From assembly GCF_001956695.1 (NCBI RefSeq), contig NZ_CP019070.1:1240001-1304000 (forward strand): DNA of 64,000 nt. The letters are read 5' to 3'. The position numbers and the translations under genes were made by a program. Under the pieces are notes generated by a model. It saw nothing but the letters and a program-made list of their open reading frames with translations, had not been told where the DNA came from and searched no databases. This document shows positions 9,727-29,270 of the stretch, in pieces; the first letter of the stretch is position 1; each line of letters opens with the position of its first letter. This stretch comes from Poseidonibacter parvus (lineage in GTDB: Bacteria; Campylobacterota; Campylobacteria; Campylobacterales; Arcobacteraceae).

Positions 9727-11187
9727 ATGGAAAAACCCGAAGTTAAAACACAAAAATTCATAATTAAATTTTTCCCCGAAATTATGATAAAAGGTAGTAA
9801 AGCTAAGAGACAGATGATTAATCAGCTTTACAATAATCTTAAAAAGATGCTAACAAAAATTGATGAAGATATATCAATAAAAAAATTTCATGATAAGATT
9901 GAAGTTGTATGTTTAGTAGATTTTGTAACAGAAATTAGACAAATACTATTACAAACTCCAGGTGCTCAGCTTGTATTAGAAGCATTACAGTTTGATAATA
10001 TCACAACAATAGATCAAATGAAAGTTATAGTTAATGATGTAACAAAAGATCAAGTTATTGGTAAAACTTTTGTTGTTAGAGTAAAGCGTTCAGGAACTCA
10101 TAGTTTTAAATCAACAGAGATCGAAAAAACTATTGGCGGATATATGTTGGCTCATAATGATACAAAAGGAGTGAGTTTAAGAGAAGCAGAAGCTACAATA
10201 AACGTAGAACTTTTTGATAATCAATTAAATATTATCACATTAAAGCATAAAGGTTTAGGTGGTTTTCCAATAGGAACTCAAGGAGATGTATTATCTTTAA
10301 TGTCTGGTGGATTTGATTCTACAGTAGCTTCTTATCTTACAATGAAAAGAGGAATTAAAACTCATTTTATTTTCTTTAATCTTGGTGGTGTTGCACATGA
10401 AATTGGTGTAAAGCAAGTTGCCTTATATCTTTGGAATAAATTTGGCTCATCTCATAATATTACATTTATATCCGTTCCTTTTGATGATGTAGTTACTGAG
10501 ATATTTAGATCTACATCAGATTCGTACATGGGTATTACACTTAAAAGATTAATGATTAAAGCTTCTGAAAAAATTGCAGACGATATGGGAATTGATGCCT
10601 TACTTACAGGTGAGAGTGTGGCTCAAGTATCTAGTCAAACATTAAGAAACTTAGCTTTAATTGATCAAGTTACAAACAAATTAATTTTAAGACCCTTAGC
10701 TACTATGAATAAAACTGATATTATGGATATTGCAAATGATATTGGTACTAGAAGATTTGCAGAAACAATGCCTGAATATTGTGGTGTAATTTCAAAAAAT
10801 CCAAATACTCATGGTTCATTTAAAAGATTAGAAGAAGAAGCAAGAAAGTTTGATTACATAGTATTAGATAAAGCTGTAGAAAATGCAGTAAGTTTAAGAG
10901 TTCATGAAATCGAAGATGATATTTCTGATATTGGACAAATAGAAACTGTTAGTGATTTAAGTAGTGCAGAGTACACAGTTATTGATATTAGACAAAGTGA
11001 TGATTGTATTGAAACTTCTGCTGAAACTATTAAAATTCCATTTTATAAATTAAAAAGTGAATTTAAAAACCTTCCACAAAATAAAGAGTATTTATTTTAC
11101 TGTGATAAAGGTATTTTAAGCCAGTTACATGCTCAATATCTAAGAGATGCAGAGAACTTTACAAACATAAGAGTTTATCGACCATAA
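9727..11187 (+). CDS. thiI: tRNA 4-thiouridine sulfurtransferase ThiI with rhodanese domain
   Basis: The 486-residue protein is the long, E. coli-like ThiI. It has an N-terminal ferredoxin-like/THUMP region that binds tRNA, an adenylating PP-loop SGGFDS at residues 193-198, and a C-terminal rhodanese domain whose catalytic cysteine is Cys459 (FYCDKG). Cys352 (PEYCGV) matches the partner cysteine that forms a disulfide in E. coli ThiI. It makes s4U8 in tRNA and can supply sulfur for thiamine thiazole. Its last 13 bases overlap the end of the convergent cytochrome gene. Confidence 0.96.
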   Translation: MEKPEVKTQKFIIKFFPEIMIKGSKAKRQMINQLYNNLKKMLTKIDEDISIKKFHDKIEVVCLVDFVTEIRQILLQTPGAQLVLEALQFDNITTIDQMKVIVNDVTKDQVIGKTFVVRVKRSGTHSFKSTEIEKTIGGYMLAHNDTKGVSLREAEATINVELFDNQLNIITLKHKGLGGFPIGTQGDVLSLMSGGFDSTVASYLTMKRGIKTHFIFFNLGGVAHEIGVKQVALYLWNKFGSSHNITFISVPFDDVVTEIFRSTSDSYMGITLKRLMIKASEKIADDMGIDALLTGESVAQVSSQTLRNLALIDQVTNKLILRPLATMNKTDIMDIANDIGTRRFAETMPEYCGVISKNPNTHGSFKRLEEEARKFDYIVLDKAVENAVSLRVHEIEDDISDIGQIETVSDLSSAEYTVIDIRQSDDCIETSAETIKIPFYKLKSEFKNLPQNKEYLFYCDKGILSQLHAQYLRDAENFTNIRVYRP

Positions 11188-13007
11188 GCTCTTATATTTA
11201 ATTCTTCTATTATTACAATAGGAGGATTTGGAAGTGCTGGATAAGATTTTTGTACTATATTTGTTACCCATTGTGGATATATTCTAAAGTTCAGTTTTAC
11301 TTCTACATTTAAAGGAAAAGATAGATTTTTAGGGAGTTCATACTTTTCTAGTCTTCTTTCTTTTGCTTTTATTCTTGTATCTCTTAATAATATTTTATAT
11401 CTCCAAAATGCTAAACCAACTTCTTTAGCATTTTCATCTGCAAATACTTTCATATAAGGTCTAGCATCTTTACCTAGATTTCCATCTTTTTTTAATTTAC
11501 CACTTGAAAATATAACTTTATTTTTTGAATCTTTTACTGTAATATCTAACCATAATTCTCTAAAATCTGCAACGCCCGTTGGCAAATGATGTCCTGCACC
11601 TATATTTGTAACTCCAACTTCTAAAATAGTATCTTTAACACTAGCATCAAGCTTTGCAGCAGTTCTTAAAAGTTGAAGTGTTTGGTTTTCATGTTTTTTA
11701 CTTTTTAAACCTGATAAAAAGTGATTTGAACCAGAAAAATAGTGTACTTTTACATCTTTTTTAAGAACTCCTCCTTTAGTTGATGTGCCTACAAGTGGTG
11801 TGAACTTATCATTTTCTAGGTTTGTCATATGACAGTCTATACATGATTTGTGTTTTGTTTTATCTGCAAGATTATTATAAGGCGATTCTTCCCACTCTTT
11901 AAATGTTGATACTATTTGTTTTCCTGTTGTTGGTGATGTTTCATCATGACAAGAAGCACAGTATGCACTTTTTTTATAAAGAGGTTTCATATAGCTTTCT
12001 TTATGTACATTTGGCTTTGCATTTATAAACTTTTTACCTAAATATGAGCCAAGTGTTCCTTCTTCATCTTCAAAAGGATATTTTTTTCTATTTGTTAAGT
12101 CCAATTTATAAGAAGCATTTCCTTTTGAACTTGCATCACTTATTCTATGGCAAGTAAGACAAGATACTCCTTCTTCTAGTCTTGAATTGCCATGTTGTTT
12201 ATAATTATTTATTAATGTTTTAGCCCCTTTATCAAAAAGAGTATTTGCTAAAGAGTTTTCATTCATATAATGTGAAGACTTAGTCAATCCTGTTGTAATA
12301 CCACTTGGATTGTGACAAGACATACACCATTGCCTAAACTCATGACCTTCAAGTTCTCCTGCTAGATTTTCCATAACCATATAGTATGGATTTGAGTCTA
12401 CAAGATTTTTATGATTTGAATCTGCCCATTGATTAAATATTTCACTATGACATGATTTACATTTTGTAGAGTTTGTCCAATCCTCACTATGATACATAGT
12501 TTTACCATCTTCAAGTTCAAAAGAGACAAGTTTTGTTTTATATTCTTGTTCTAAAGAATAAGAAGGTGTTGGATTAATAAATGTAATAGATATACCTACC
12601 ATAAACAATAATACAAGTTTGTTTTTCTTAGGATTTTTTGTATGATAAAATAAAAATGCAAGAAGAATAAAAGATGAATATAGGTGAATATTAAATGAGT
12701 AAATTCCTAATATATTTCCACCTGTATTTCCAATAAAGAACAAATAAAAACCACTTAAGGTAGTTAAGAGTAGAACAAAACCTAAAATCCAACCAATCTT
12801 ACTATTTACTTTTTTTATTACTATATATTTGTAAGCGTGTTTATTCACAAAAGGAATAATATAAAATATTGAAAATAATATAGAAGTAAAAGCATGGATA
12901 ATAGATATATCTGTTAAATATTTCCATTGGATATTAAAAATATCCATTTGTAAGACACCTGTAATAAAAATTAGAATAATTAGTATTTTGATATTAAATA
13001 GTTTCAT
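11175..13007 (-). CDS. Membrane-anchored five-heme cytochrome c
   Basis: The first 150 residues carry about five hydrophobic segments, and the remainder is a periplasmic multiheme region. Five CXXCH heme-attachment motifs are visible at residues 183-187, 228-232, 283-287, 350-354 and 389-393, with extra histidines (for example DSNHKN and SSHYMN) that could be distal ligands. The C-terminal 190 residues lack hemes and look beta-rich. It starts one base inside the stop of the MauG-like gene (TAATG), so the two are translated together. A role in periplasmic electron transfer is likely; the partner and substrate are not evident. Confidence 0.85.
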   Translation of the reverse strand: MKLFNIKILIILIFITGVLQMDIFNIQWKYLTDISIIHAFTSILFSIFYIIPFVNKHAYKYIVIKKVNSKIGWILGFVLLLTTLSGFYLFFIGNTGGNILGIYSFNIHLYSSFILLAFLFYHTKNPKKNKLVLLFMVGISITFINPTPSYSLEQEYKTKLVSFELEDGKTMYHSEDWTNSTKCKSCHSEIFNQWADSNHKNLVDSNPYYMVMENLAGELEGHEFRQWCMSCHNPSGITTGLTKSSHYMNENSLANTLFDKGAKTLINNYKQHGNSRLEEGVSCLTCHRISDASSKGNASYKLDLTNRKKYPFEDEEGTLGSYLGKKFINAKPNVHKESYMKPLYKKSAYCASCHDETSPTTGKQIVSTFKEWEESPYNNLADKTKHKSCIDCHMTNLENDKFTPLVGTSTKGGVLKKDVKVHYFSGSNHFLSGLKSKKHENQTLQLLRTAAKLDASVKDTILEVGVTNIGAGHHLPTGVADFRELWLDITVKDSKNKVIFSSGKLKKDGNLGKDARPYMKVFADENAKEVGLAFWRYKILLRDTRIKAKERRLEKYELPKNLSFPLNVEVKLNFRIYPQWVTNIVQKSYPALPNPPIVIIEELNIRAYGR

Positions 13008-14134
13008 TATTTAATTTCCTTCTTTGATTGTTTAATTACATTCCCCTCTAAGGTCTTCAAAAAAGCTACAATATCATCTATTTGTGTATTTGTAAGATTT
13101 ATTCCTACTTGATGCCTTCCCATTATTTCTACTGCTTTTCTTATTTTATCAACTGAACCATTATGAAAATATGGAGACGTTTTTGTAACGTTCCTTAAAA
13201 TAGGAACCCTAAAAAAGCTTGTATTTGCTCTTCCTTTATATTCTCCTTTATTTTCAAAAGGAAAAGTATTATCAATTATTTCAAAATCAGGAGCAGGACC
13301 AAGATTAGGTCTTAAATCATGAATACCAGCAAAGTTTCTTAAAGGAAACCTTTGAACACTTTGTCCTCCTACACTTCTTCCCGTATGACAACCACTACAC
13401 CCAAAGTTCATAAAATTTACTAAGCCTTGTTTTGCCTGCTTATTAATTGCATTATTGTCACCTTCTAAAAACTCATCAAAACTACTTCTTGTCAAAAGTG
13501 TTTTGATATAAGCTTCTATTGCATCAATTATTTCTTCATAGTTGTAATCAAATCTTTTTTCTAGTTCTTCTGCTGATATATTTAATTTATGTGTTGATTT
13601 AATTGAGTTTATGATTTGTTCTTTTAATATTTTTACTTCGCCGCTCCATGTAAAAGTTTTTGCAAGTGATGAGTTTAAAATAGTTATAGTATTTAGATGG
13701 TGAGGATTTAAAGTATTGTTATCTCCTAGAGAGGAAGAAAATCTATCTGTACCGCTTTCGTCTTTTAAATGGCATCTTACGCAATTATTTGTATCTATTA
13801 ATACTTGCTCTTCTTTTGTTATACTATTTTCTTCTTTACTAATCATATGACAAGTAGTACAAGAAGTTTTTTTATTTAGTGAAAGATTAGGATTAAAAAA
13901 TAACTCTTTTCCTAAAGCTATTTTTTCTTTATTTAAAATAGTATTTTGTTCATATTTTTCTAAATACTCTTCATAAGATTTAGGAATTGATTTAAGTCCT
14001 TTTTTTATAGCTGTTTTTCTTAATGAATCGTCGTTGTATGAGGGAAAATCTCTTTGTTTAAGAAGTGAAGGAAGTGATAATAGTATTGATATTACAACAA
14101 ATGCAAATAACAATATTCTCATAAATATTTTCAT
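13007..14134 (-). CDS. Three-heme cytochrome c peroxidase / MauG-family protein
   Basis: A 375-residue exported or membrane-tethered protein with an N-terminal hydrophobic anchor (residues 3-25). It has three CXXCH motifs at residues 92-96, 118-122 and 246-250. Classical bacterial di-heme peroxidases have two, so this belongs to the tri-heme branch of the CcpA/MauG family. The C-terminal segment FFHNGSVDKIRKAVEIMGRHQ is characteristic of the family. Members reduce H2O2 or oxidise protein side chains; which applies here is unknown. It leads a two-gene unit with the five-heme cytochrome. A long hairpin covers its ribosome-binding site. Confidence 0.88.
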   Translation of the reverse strand: MKIFMRILLFAFVVISILLSLPSLLKQRDFPSYNDDSLRKTAIKKGLKSIPKSYEEYLEKYEQNTILNKEKIALGKELFFNPNLSLNKKTSCTTCHMISKEENSITKEEQVLIDTNNCVRCHLKDESGTDRFSSSLGDNNTLNPHHLNTITILNSSLAKTFTWSGEVKILKEQIINSIKSTHKLNISAEELEKRFDYNYEEIIDAIEAYIKTLLTRSSFDEFLEGDNNAINKQAKQGLVNFMNFGCSGCHTGRSVGGQSVQRFPLRNFAGIHDLRPNLGPAPDFEIIDNTFPFENKGEYKGRANTSFFRVPILRNVTKTSPYFHNGSVDKIRKAVEIMGRHQVGINLTNTQIDDIVAFLKTLEGNVIKQSKKEIK

Positions 14135-14136
14135 AA

Positions 14137-14172
14137 ATAGTATCCAATAAATATATATTTATTAGATACTAT
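14137..14172 (-). promoter_or_regulatory. RBS-covering hairpin of the MauG-like gene
   Basis: Two 18-base arms form an inverted repeat ending two bases before the start codon. On the reverse (transcribed) strand all 18 positions can pair, because the single non-Watson-Crick position is U-G; on the other strand it would be A-C. The right arm contains GGA, the only plausible ribosome-binding site, eight bases from the ATG. It could also be a protein-binding palindrome. Confidence 0.55.
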
Positions 14173-14214
14173 CAAAAAGATAGGTTTTAAAAATTGTAAA
14201 TTATCAATTTTTAT

Positions 14215-14695
14215 TTAAAATAAAAATAAAAATAGATAAATACATACTCCCATTAATGAACTGATCGTAAGTCCTAGAAATATTAACTTACCTAATTTTT
14301 TATGATTTGAGCTTTTAATCTGTTCTAATTGCTTGTTTCTGTATAGTTTAATAAAGGTAATAAATAAATACACCCATGAAATTAAAGCAATAATAGCAAT
14401 AATTATATGAATAATTAAAAAAGATAGCATAAAGGTATATGAAATATTACTAGCTTTTGAGTACTCTAAAAAGCCACCAGAAATTCTAAGTCCAATTTCA
14501 AAAACAATTATAATAGTAATAGTAATAGCTAATAGCTAATAAAAAAGCTTGAGATATAAAATGCTCTTTATATTTTCTTTTAACGGCTAAATATATTGTA
14601 AAAGCCATTAATAGTGGGAATACAGCAAAATATATAGTTACAAAATCTATATAAAAAGGTGCTGCTGTTCCCAAAAAACCCTGATTAAATAGCAT
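14215..14695 (-). pseudogene. DUF420 membrane protein, frameshifted by a 7-bp duplication
   Basis: Two reverse-strand frames together make one DUF420 protein. The N-terminal part starts at 14695 (GFLGTAAPFYIDFVTIYF, then LAVKRKYKEHF), and the C-terminal part (FEIGLRISGGF, then IIHIIIAIIALISWVY and HKKLGKLIFLGL) ends at 14215. They meet at a doubled heptamer at 14526-14539; removing one copy restores an open frame through the whole gene. DUF420 proteins are small four-helix membrane proteins often found near cytochrome oxidases. As read here only a 65-residue fragment followed by a stop is made. It could be a phase-variable switch, a recent mutation or a sequencing error. Confidence 0.8.
14511..14540. 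repeat. Short tandem repeats at the DUF420 frameshift
   Basis: On the + strand, TAATAG occurs three times in a row (14511-14528), followed by a C and TAATAG again, which produces two exact copies of TAGCTAA at 14526-14539. Both repeat types invite slippage; a change of one heptamer shifts the frame. Confidence 0.8.
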
Positions 14696-14699
14696 ACAA

Positions 14700-14996
14700 T
14701 TAATCTTTATTTTGTTTTTTAATTACATTTTCAATTATGATAAAACCAAATGGAATTAATGAATAAACAAATAATTGAAATCCTAAACCTTTGTCCCATT
14801 TACATTTAACCATTACATGAAAAAGTGCCATACAAAATAATATAAATAATACACCATGTCCCATTCCAACTATTTTTACGGGATATGGATTATCGCCTAA
14901 ATACTTAATAGGCATTGCAACAAATACTAATAATAAATATGAAAGACCTTCTATTATTGAAATAAGTCTAAATCTTCCAAATGCTGTTTTTAACAT
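14700..14996 (-). CDS. DUF3817 (YdzA-like) membrane protein
   Basis: A 98-residue inner-membrane protein with three or so hydrophobic helices and the DUF3817 signature: FRLISIIEGLSYLLLVF at the start, the MPIKYLGDNPYPVKIVG loop, and GHGVLFILFCMALFH after it. The function of the family is not established. Its stop lies four bases before the start of the broken DUF420 gene, so the pair forms a small unit of membrane proteins. Confidence 0.8.
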   Translation of the reverse strand: MLKTAFGRFRLISIIEGLSYLLLVFVAMPIKYLGDNPYPVKIVGMGHGVLFILFCMALFHVMVKCKWDKGLGFQLFVYSLIPFGFIIIENVIKKQNKD

Positions 14997-15100
14997 TTTT
15001 ATTCCTTTAAATTTTAAATTTGATTATATGTAAATATACTTAATGATTAACTAAAAACTTTATAAAAAATATGTATAATTAAAAGAAAGAGTTTAAATAT

Positions 15101-15178
15101 ATGAGTACAAATAAAATCATTTTTGCACTATTGGTGTTGTATATATTAGCAGATGTTGTTAAAACATATTTTTTTTAA
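15101..15178 (+). CDS. Possible 25-residue membrane peptide
   Basis: An ATG at 15101 opens a frame encoding 25 residues with a hydrophobic stretch (KIIFALLVLYILADVV) ending in FF. TATAAT at 15074-15079 could be its -10 element, and AAAGAAAGA lies in the leader. It occupies an otherwise empty gap between two reverse-strand genes. Small size makes chance possible, and no family can be assigned. Confidence 0.4.
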   Translation: MSTNKIIFALLVLYILADVVKTYFF

Positions 15179-15190
15179 AAGAAAAAAGAA

Positions 15191-15388
15191 TTAATCTTCT
15201 TTCTTTTCTAAATCACATTTCTTAGAGATAATGCAAGCAGGGCAAAAGTTAGCTAATCCTGCAATTAAAGGAAGTACCCCTAAATAAAACCATGCATTGC
15301 CTGTAAAAAATCCTACTGCAATTAGCACAAGTCCTAAAACAATTCTAAATGGTCTACATACCATTCTCATCTTTTCGAAAAAATTCAT
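15191..15388 (-). CDS. DUF2892 inner-membrane protein
   Basis: A 65-residue protein matching the DUF2892 family, the small membrane unit also found at the end of YgaP-type rhodaneses. It begins with a cytoplasmic MRMVCRPFRIVLG segment, has two membrane helices (VLIAVGFFTGNAWFYLGVLPLIAG), and ends with the cysteine-containing NFCPACIISKKC. Function is unknown; in YgaP the equivalent segment anchors a sulfurtransferase. It is a single-gene unit here. Confidence 0.8.
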   Translation of the reverse strand: MNFFEKMRMVCRPFRIVLGLVLIAVGFFTGNAWFYLGVLPLIAGLANFCPACIISKKCDLEKKED

Positions 15389-15540
15389 AAGTTTTCCTTA
15401 TTATTAATAGTTTAATTTTTATAATTATAGCTTATGAAACTTATAAAAATTTAAAAGTTTATTTAATAGACATGAATCAAGTGTTATTTTTTCAAAAGAT
15501 GATACAATAAAAATATAATTTATAAATCAAAAGTTTTAAT

Positions 15541-16926
15541 ATGAAAAAACACTTCCTCGAACAATCAATTATCTTTTTCTCAGTTAGTAAATGGCTTATT
15601 ATCTCAACAATCATAGGTATAGTAATAGGTGCAATAGTTACTTTTTTTGTGACAGTCTTACAGTATTCAGAAGACTCAAGAGATTTACTAGGCTTTAAAT
15701 ACTACTATTTATTGCCCTTTGCTTTAATGCTTACCATATGGCTTACAAAAACTTTTGCTCCAAATGCAAAAGGTCATGGAACAGAAAAAGTAATAGAAGC
15801 AATTCATAAAAAACATGGAAAAATAGATATTTTAATAATACCTGTGAAATTAATAGCCACTGTTCTTACAATTTTTGCAGGAGGTTCAGCAGGGAAAGAA
15901 GGACCAGCTGCACAAATAGGTGCTGGTGCTGCTTCTTTAATAGCCGATATTTTTAGATTTTCAAAAGAGCATAGAAAAAAAATTGTAATTTGTGGGATAA
16001 GCGCAGGTTTTGCAGCAGTTTTTGGAACACCAATTTCAGGTGCTATTTTTGGTGTTGAAGTATTAATTGTTGGAATTATTATGTATGATGTACTACTTCC
16101 TTCTTTTATAGCGGGCTTTGCAGCTTTTTCTACGGCACAATTTCTTGGTTTAAACTATACATATTTTGATATGAGATTTTCACAAGCTATTCCACTTGAA
16201 CTTACACTTATTAGTCAAGTTGTACTTGCTGGTTTATTTTTTGGAATTATTGCAGATTTCTTTATTACTTTTTTAAAAACTACAGGAAAGTCTATTCAAT
16301 CATTTAAAATGAATGCTTACTTAAAAGCTTTTCTAGGCGGAACATTTTTAATTGTATTATCTTTTTTCTTTGGTGAACAGTATTTTGGTTTAGGATTAGA
16401 AACTGTAAATAGTACATTCTTTTCAGATCAGAGTGTAGTAGAAGAGATACCTTGGTATGCATTTGTTTTAAAAACTATATTTACATCAATTACTCTTGGA
16501 GTTGGTGGAAGTGGAGGAGTTTTAACACCTTTATTTTTTGTAGGTGCAACTAGTGGGAATTTATTTGGTTCTTTAATGGGTGATCATATTGCATTCTTTT
16601 CAGCTATTGGTTTTGTAAGTTTACTAGCAGGTGCTACAAATGCGCCAATAGCTGCTATTATTATGGCAGTTGAACTTTTTGGACTTGAAATTGCTCCTTA
16701 TGCCGCAATTTCTGTTGTAATTACTTTTTTAATTACAGGACATAGAAGTGTTTTTCCATCTCAAATATTAAAAATGAAAAAAAGTGAAATGCTTGATATT
16801 TCAATGGGTGAAGATATGGATCATTCTTCTGCAAATGTACGAGCTGAAGATAAACAAAAGTTCAAAGATTTAAAACAAAGATTAAGAAGTAAAAGTAAAA
16901 ATACAAATAAAAGGTTACCAAAATGA
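15541..16926 (+). CDS. CLC-type chloride channel or Cl-/H+ antiporter
   Basis: A 461-residue polytopic membrane protein of the CLC family. The selectivity-filter segment GSAGKEGPAAQIG carries the gating glutamate at Glu120, and the second filter region appears as GVGGSGGVLTPLFFVGATSGN. Family members move chloride or fluoride, either passively or in exchange for protons; which applies cannot be told from these motifs. The charged C-terminal tail after residue 415 lacks CBS domains. It overlaps the following DsrE gene by four bases (ATGA), so they form an operon. Confidence 0.9.
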   Translation: MKKHFLEQSIIFFSVSKWLIISTIIGIVIGAIVTFFVTVLQYSEDSRDLLGFKYYYLLPFALMLTIWLTKTFAPNAKGHGTEKVIEAIHKKHGKIDILIIPVKLIATVLTIFAGGSAGKEGPAAQIGAGAASLIADIFRFSKEHRKKIVICGISAGFAAVFGTPISGAIFGVEVLIVGIIMYDVLLPSFIAGFAAFSTAQFLGLNYTYFDMRFSQAIPLELTLISQVVLAGLFFGIIADFFITFLKTTGKSIQSFKMNAYLKAFLGGTFLIVLSFFFGEQYFGLGLETVNSTFFSDQSVVEEIPWYAFVLKTIFTSITLGVGGSGGVLTPLFFVGATSGNLFGSLMGDHIAFFSAIGFVSLLAGATNAPIAAIIMAVELFGLEIAPYAAISVVITFLITGHRSVFPSQILKMKKSEMLDISMGEDMDHSSANVRAEDKQKFKDLKQRLRSKSKNTNKRLPK

Positions 16927-29234: not shown

Positions 29235-29270
29235 TTTTGCAATGCTTTTGCAATGCCTTTTTCTTATACT
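29235..29270 (+). promoter_or_regulatory. Tandem 11-bp activator box and -10 of the giant lipoprotein gene
   Basis: TTTTGCAATGC occurs twice without spacing at 29235-29245 and 29246-29256. TATACT at 29265-29270 is a good -10 element, which puts the second repeat over the -35 position. No TTGACA-like -35 is present. This is the layout of promoters activated by OmpR/PhoB-family regulators, one of which is encoded directly upstream. Confidence 0.65.

Follow-up and report, generated by a model that had tools for sequence, protein, structure and literature searches.

The DUF420 (PF04238) gene described here is split between two reading frames in Poseidonibacter parvus, and the frames change at a doubled heptamer. 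The question is whether this site is a phase-variable switch, a recent loss of the gene, an error of the assembly, or a gene that is still expressed. The stretch analysed, referred to as the window, comprises 64,000 nucleotides. The disrupted gene occupies 14215–14695 on the minus strand and, according to the DNA alignment and Pfam, is 481 nt long, a multiple of three plus one. Its N-terminal half (14498–14695, minus strand) starts at ATG 14695 and continues for 65 codons, with out-of-frame residues at the end, to a stop at 14498. The C-terminal half (14215–14523, minus strand) lies in a shifted frame of 102 codons and a stop; this frame is open from 14535, and the first ATG within it, at 14430, starts an ORF of 71 aa. 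The N and C frames share an overlap of 38 nt, so the frame change that the original prediction placed between two DUF420 halves is real.

The identification of the gene as DUF420 is supported by the Pfam match of the C-terminal half, which scores 40.9 bits against a cut-off of 30.5 and covers profile positions 47–130. The N-terminal half alone gave no match in the Pfam search. In the nearest congener, G002, the intact protein scores 51.9 bits over profile positions 3–130, and it is about 78–80% identical to the N-terminal half (78% across residues 1–55) and 81–82% identical to the C-terminal half. An AlphaFold model of the DUF420 protein of P. ostreae (L021; mean pLDDT 86) has helices at residues 14–38, 42–69, 84–117 and 129–155, and the break near codon 55, when placed on this model, is inside predicted helix 2 of 4. 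The N-terminal product retains a single predicted transmembrane segment, segment 1, and with the split in helix 2 the window gene does not encode four transmembrane helices in one chain. Sequence and model together indicate that the window gene descends from the DUF420 family and that the chain now encoded would be incomplete. No second DUF420 copy able to cover the loss was found in the genome.

The heptamer TAGCTAA is present at 14526 and again at 14533, and the two adjoining exact copies span 14526–14539, as predicted originally, within a repeat that is larger than was described. Both copies lie in a 19-bp tract with a perfect period of 7 and 2.7 units (14523–14541, no strand assigned). Overlapping it, three perfect TAATAG units form a frame-neutral period-6 tract of 18 bp (14511–14528, no strand assigned). 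The 14-mer formed by the doubled TAGCTAA is single-copy in the genome of 2,866,429 bases. Compared with first-order Markov expectations from 5 to 100 resamplings, period-7 tracts of at least 14 bp number 9 in the window versus 11.4 expected, and doubled heptamers number 74 versus 70 expected in 464 kb (the window and a 400-kb sample). Period-7 tracts of at least 19 bp were found once in the window versus 0.05 expected and twice in the 464 kb versus 0.4 expected, and the second of these falls between open frames. Doubled heptamers occur at chance frequency and are ordinary in this AT-rich genome. The significance of the doubled TAGCTAA is its location, as a 7-nt insertion relative to all eight aligned relatives.

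The search covered 100 genomes, the window's genome and 99 relatives of the same order. A DUF420 match was present in 28 of them, above the cut-off in 27, and the gene is open across nearly the whole profile in 26 of the 27 other genomes; in the 27th it runs off its locus. Seven of the nine congeners carry the gene, all open across nearly the whole profile, and the two without it have genomes that are 88% and 85% complete. P. ostreae SJOD-M-5 (G005) and P. lekithochrous A1R12 (G001) are both congeneric with the window's genome. No viral relatives were found in viral contigs. The DNA alignment included eight of the 17 relative loci, those of the seven congeners with a match and of G011, with L008 and L012–L019 left out. 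In this alignment the gene is 474 nt long in seven of the eight relatives and 471 nt in the eighth, no period-7 tract at this position exceeds 10 nt in any of them, and the aligner places the gap for the extra 7 nt opposite the edge of the repeat. It had been proposed that deletion of one copy joins QAFLLAI directly to VFEIG. The 7-bp duplication stands, but the join omits TITIII, which is encoded by the C frame and aligns with the relatives.

With a probability of roughly 75%, we consider that one recent and private 7-bp duplication, produced by replication slippage, has inactivated a DUF420 gene that the strain could dispense with. The ancestral gene would have encoded an ordinary four-helix inner-membrane protein of the DUF420 (CtaM) family. 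Slippage between short direct repeats is a standard route to such duplications, and here it may have doubled one 7-bp unit in the strain or its recent ancestors; the extra 7 bp would then cause a frameshift within predicted helix 2, inactivating the gene. The description of the mutation as a simple 7-bp slippage was correct for the duplication, and slippage would be its natural origin. That slippage was the cause, that function was lost, that this was recent and that the strain tolerates it are our inferences. A private recent loss is preferred because the tract would be short for a switch and is not conserved in relatives, the hexamers are frame-neutral and a G9 tract is lacking. The same slippage could delete a perfect tandem copy, and rare reversion would be expected. 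Some product could still arise from the 71-aa ORF of the C-terminal half or through +1 frameshifting at a low level. The gene appears to be dispensable in the lineage, as 72 of the 100 genomes, some of them incomplete, have no DUF420 match. The mutation is most likely an ordinary one, in which one dispensable gene was lost by a common route.

The claim of a recent loss fits the state of the C-terminal half, in which decay is little advanced because its 102 codons contain no stop and its dN/dS relative to G002 is about 0.17 (dN 0.10, dS 0.59). The N-terminal half gave a ratio of about 0.20 in the same comparison (dN 0.13, dS 0.68). Over five relatives, dN/dS was 0.17–0.32 for the C half and 0.17–0.55 for the N half, and among intact pairs it was 0.07–0.30 and 0.15–0.80, respectively; such pairwise ratios cannot time the lesion. 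Constraint is not clearly relaxed, although two C-half values reach or slightly exceed the upper end seen among intact pairs, and slight relaxation of the C half may have occurred. The gene differs from intact orthologues by one frame-disrupting change and is otherwise conserved, as in a frameshift pseudogene with little decay.

The main rival is that the cell's genome lacks the extra 7-bp unit, which would then be an assembly or consensus error. We regard this as unlikely, although the allele is known here from a single assembly and the tract is low-complexity and AT-rich. The typical errors of long reads are single-base indels in homopolymers, and the clean gain of a 7-bp unit would be unusual as a sequencing error. 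The assembly also consists of a single contig, with 100% completeness and 0.4% contamination, and the neighbouring genes found in four compared relatives each align in one piece, most of them near full length.

A phase-variable on/off switch had been suggested for this site; slippage of the heptamer would then toggle DUF420 at a high rate favoured by selection. In favour of a switch, the coding sequence contains a perfect tandem repeat with a unit length not divisible by three, and the frame downstream of it is preserved and constrained. However, the suggestion is not supported, since none of the eight aligned relatives carries the repeat at this position, whereas in a contingency locus it would be kept there, and we consider such a switch improbable. 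A switch would be expected to have a longer tract, to keep its repeat in related genomes or to show variants within one strain, and two to three units, as in this 19-bp tract of 2.7 units, would be short for a contingency locus. Doubled heptamers are no more than chance-frequent in the 464 kb, the product is predicted to be an inner-membrane protein and probably not a surface antigen, and no G9 or C9 tract was found on either strand of the genome. The adjoining TAATAG repeats had been seen as a risk of further slips, but they cannot switch the frame because their length changes by six. In the literature collection searched, no paper joined Poseidonibacter with phase variation.

Known systems resemble this site in part. 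In Campylobacter, which belongs to related bacteria, slippage at the poly-G tracts of contingency loci likewise alters the reading frame, and the tracts of C. jejuni are mainly G9 and G10 (PMC8355987). The unit here, by contrast, is 7 bp in 2.7 copies, is not found in relatives and is accompanied by no G9 tract. The "frameshift scars" of Mycobacterium tuberculosis are frameshift indels in low-complexity DNA that may silence genes reversibly (PMC8339072). The likeness is that a gene is disrupted by a small indel within repetitive DNA and that a second indel could undo it; the difference is that here one genome carries one event and no reversal has been seen. It is very improbable that the doubled heptamer acts as a low-rate, reversible switch in a bacterium without heme A, with the DUF420 protein serving the cbb3 oxidase or copper handling instead of an aa3 oxidase. 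If it did, slippage would yield subpopulations with and without the DUF420 membrane protein. The case cautions against reading phase variation from a short, perfect repeat where a frame breaks, unless the repeat is conserved or variants are seen.

Continued expression of the gene is very improbable, either by a +1 ribosomal shift where the two frames overlap for 38 nt or by reinitiation of the C half at ATG 14430. The N frame ends with TGT TTT TGA followed by A; at this TTT-TGA, for instance, which resembles the prfB shift site, the Phe tRNA could pass into the C frame by slipping one base. The T run before the stop, however, consists of codons read in frame by relatives and is no special signal, so that the slip-like end of the frame is likely a coincidence, and reinitiation would give helices 3 and 4 only.

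The heme-copper oxidases of Staphylococcus aureus and Bacillus subtilis depend for their function on CtaM/YozB proteins of the DUF420 family (PMC4958251, PMC13344008, PMC8239418), and one of these papers, from 2026, proposes copper export. One published statement is that CtaM proteins are found only alongside aa3-type oxidases (PMC4958251). No match to the heme A synthase COX15-CtaA was found in any of the 100 genomes, including the window's; seven of 14 controls matched. The pairing of a CtaM-type factor with an aa3-type oxidase and heme A synthesis was not found here. DUF420 does not appear to be tied to heme A synthase in the order searched, because DUF420 is present in 28 of the 100 genomes and COX15-CtaA in none. 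The aa3-only view needs widening because DUF420 is intact in an order whose 100 genomes gave no heme A synthase match. Like CtaM/YozB, the window gene belongs to this Pfam family, and four transmembrane helices are predicted for a relative. It differs in that its copy is broken and in that its genome, which encodes a cbb3 oxidase and a NorB-like protein, gave no match to heme A synthase. DUF420 may instead have a role with the cbb3 oxidase or copper, and a strain with a natural DUF420 break could help to test its role.

The COX1-family matches in the window's genome are CcoN of the cbb3 oxidase, a NorB-like protein and a third match below the cut-off. The NorB-like protein adjoins a cytochrome c subunit, was named by its sequence features and a weak Pfam match on the neighbour, and received no name from NCBIfam. 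The only COX2 match in this genome is below the cut-off and lies in an 879-aa frame that is probably NosZ. CuA-type COX2 above 50 bits was found in 13 of the 100 genomes, in 7/28 with DUF420 versus 6/72 without (p = 0.04), a weak association that ignores kinship. A tie of DUF420 to nitric oxide reductase was considered and rejected: NorB-like matches, counted from genome lists taken by eye at E values up to 0.001 and including identities of 32–41%, occurred in 17 of the 28 genomes with DUF420 versus 33 of the 72 without (p = 0.27). A fold comparison of the DUF420 model with Foldseek gave no match at E 0.001 or below. VIA-align matched the model to chains of oxidase subunit III (Z about 11, rmsd about 3, 129–136 aligned) and to designed helical bundles (Z 12–13), and heme A synthase was not among the described matches listed.

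The DUF420 gene lies directly downstream of a DUF3817 gene (14700–14996, minus strand; 89.2 bits), which adjoins it in the seven congeners carrying DUF420 as well. Further downstream are a gene for a di-haem cytochrome c peroxidase of the MauG type (13007–14134, minus strand; CCP_MauG, 90.6 bits) and, on the same strand, a multihaem cytochrome c gene (11175–13007, minus strand). G005 and G003 have the same cytochrome pair about 2.6–2.8 kb from DUF420, whereas a stretch of 16 kb from each of G002 and G001 gave no match to the pair. In G005 and G003 a short-chain dehydrogenase (Pfam, for the G005 copy) and a further gene lie between DUF420 and the peroxidase. Both are missing from the corresponding interval of the window (14135–14214), and no close relative of the dehydrogenase was found elsewhere in the window's genome, where the best match is 39% identical. 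The DUF3817 protein is 98% identical to that of G005 (DNA 90%), whereas the DUF420 halves are 71% and 61% identical to the G005 protein (DNA 75%). DUF420 is nearest to G002 (80% and 81%), and these identities suggest a mosaic boundary between the two genes.

Just ahead of the start codon of the peroxidase gene (14134), the window contains a near-perfect 36-bp palindrome (14137–14172). This stretch folds as RNA with −16.8 kcal/mol (z −5.8) and has one copy in the genome. The palindrome was not seen in the approximately 60–100 nt upstream of the peroxidase gene in G003 and G005. No structured RNA matched Rfam at the gathering threshold in 11000–16000, and in 14000–15600 there were no terminator-like sites and promoter-like matches were at shuffle level (14 versus 14.1).

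Two other short repeats were noted. An 11-bp unit is doubled at 29235–29256 of the window inside a stop-free frame of 3137 codons; it is not covered by any ATG-started ORF of at least 100 aa and probably lies ahead of the first ATG of its frame. Elsewhere in the genome, at G000:C1:1011752-1011783 (L078 11752-11783), an 11-bp direct repeat of 2.9 copies lies between two divergent genes, whose products look by eye like an exported protein of 394 aa and a response regulator of 231 aa, and the repeat units are possibly binding sites of a regulator.
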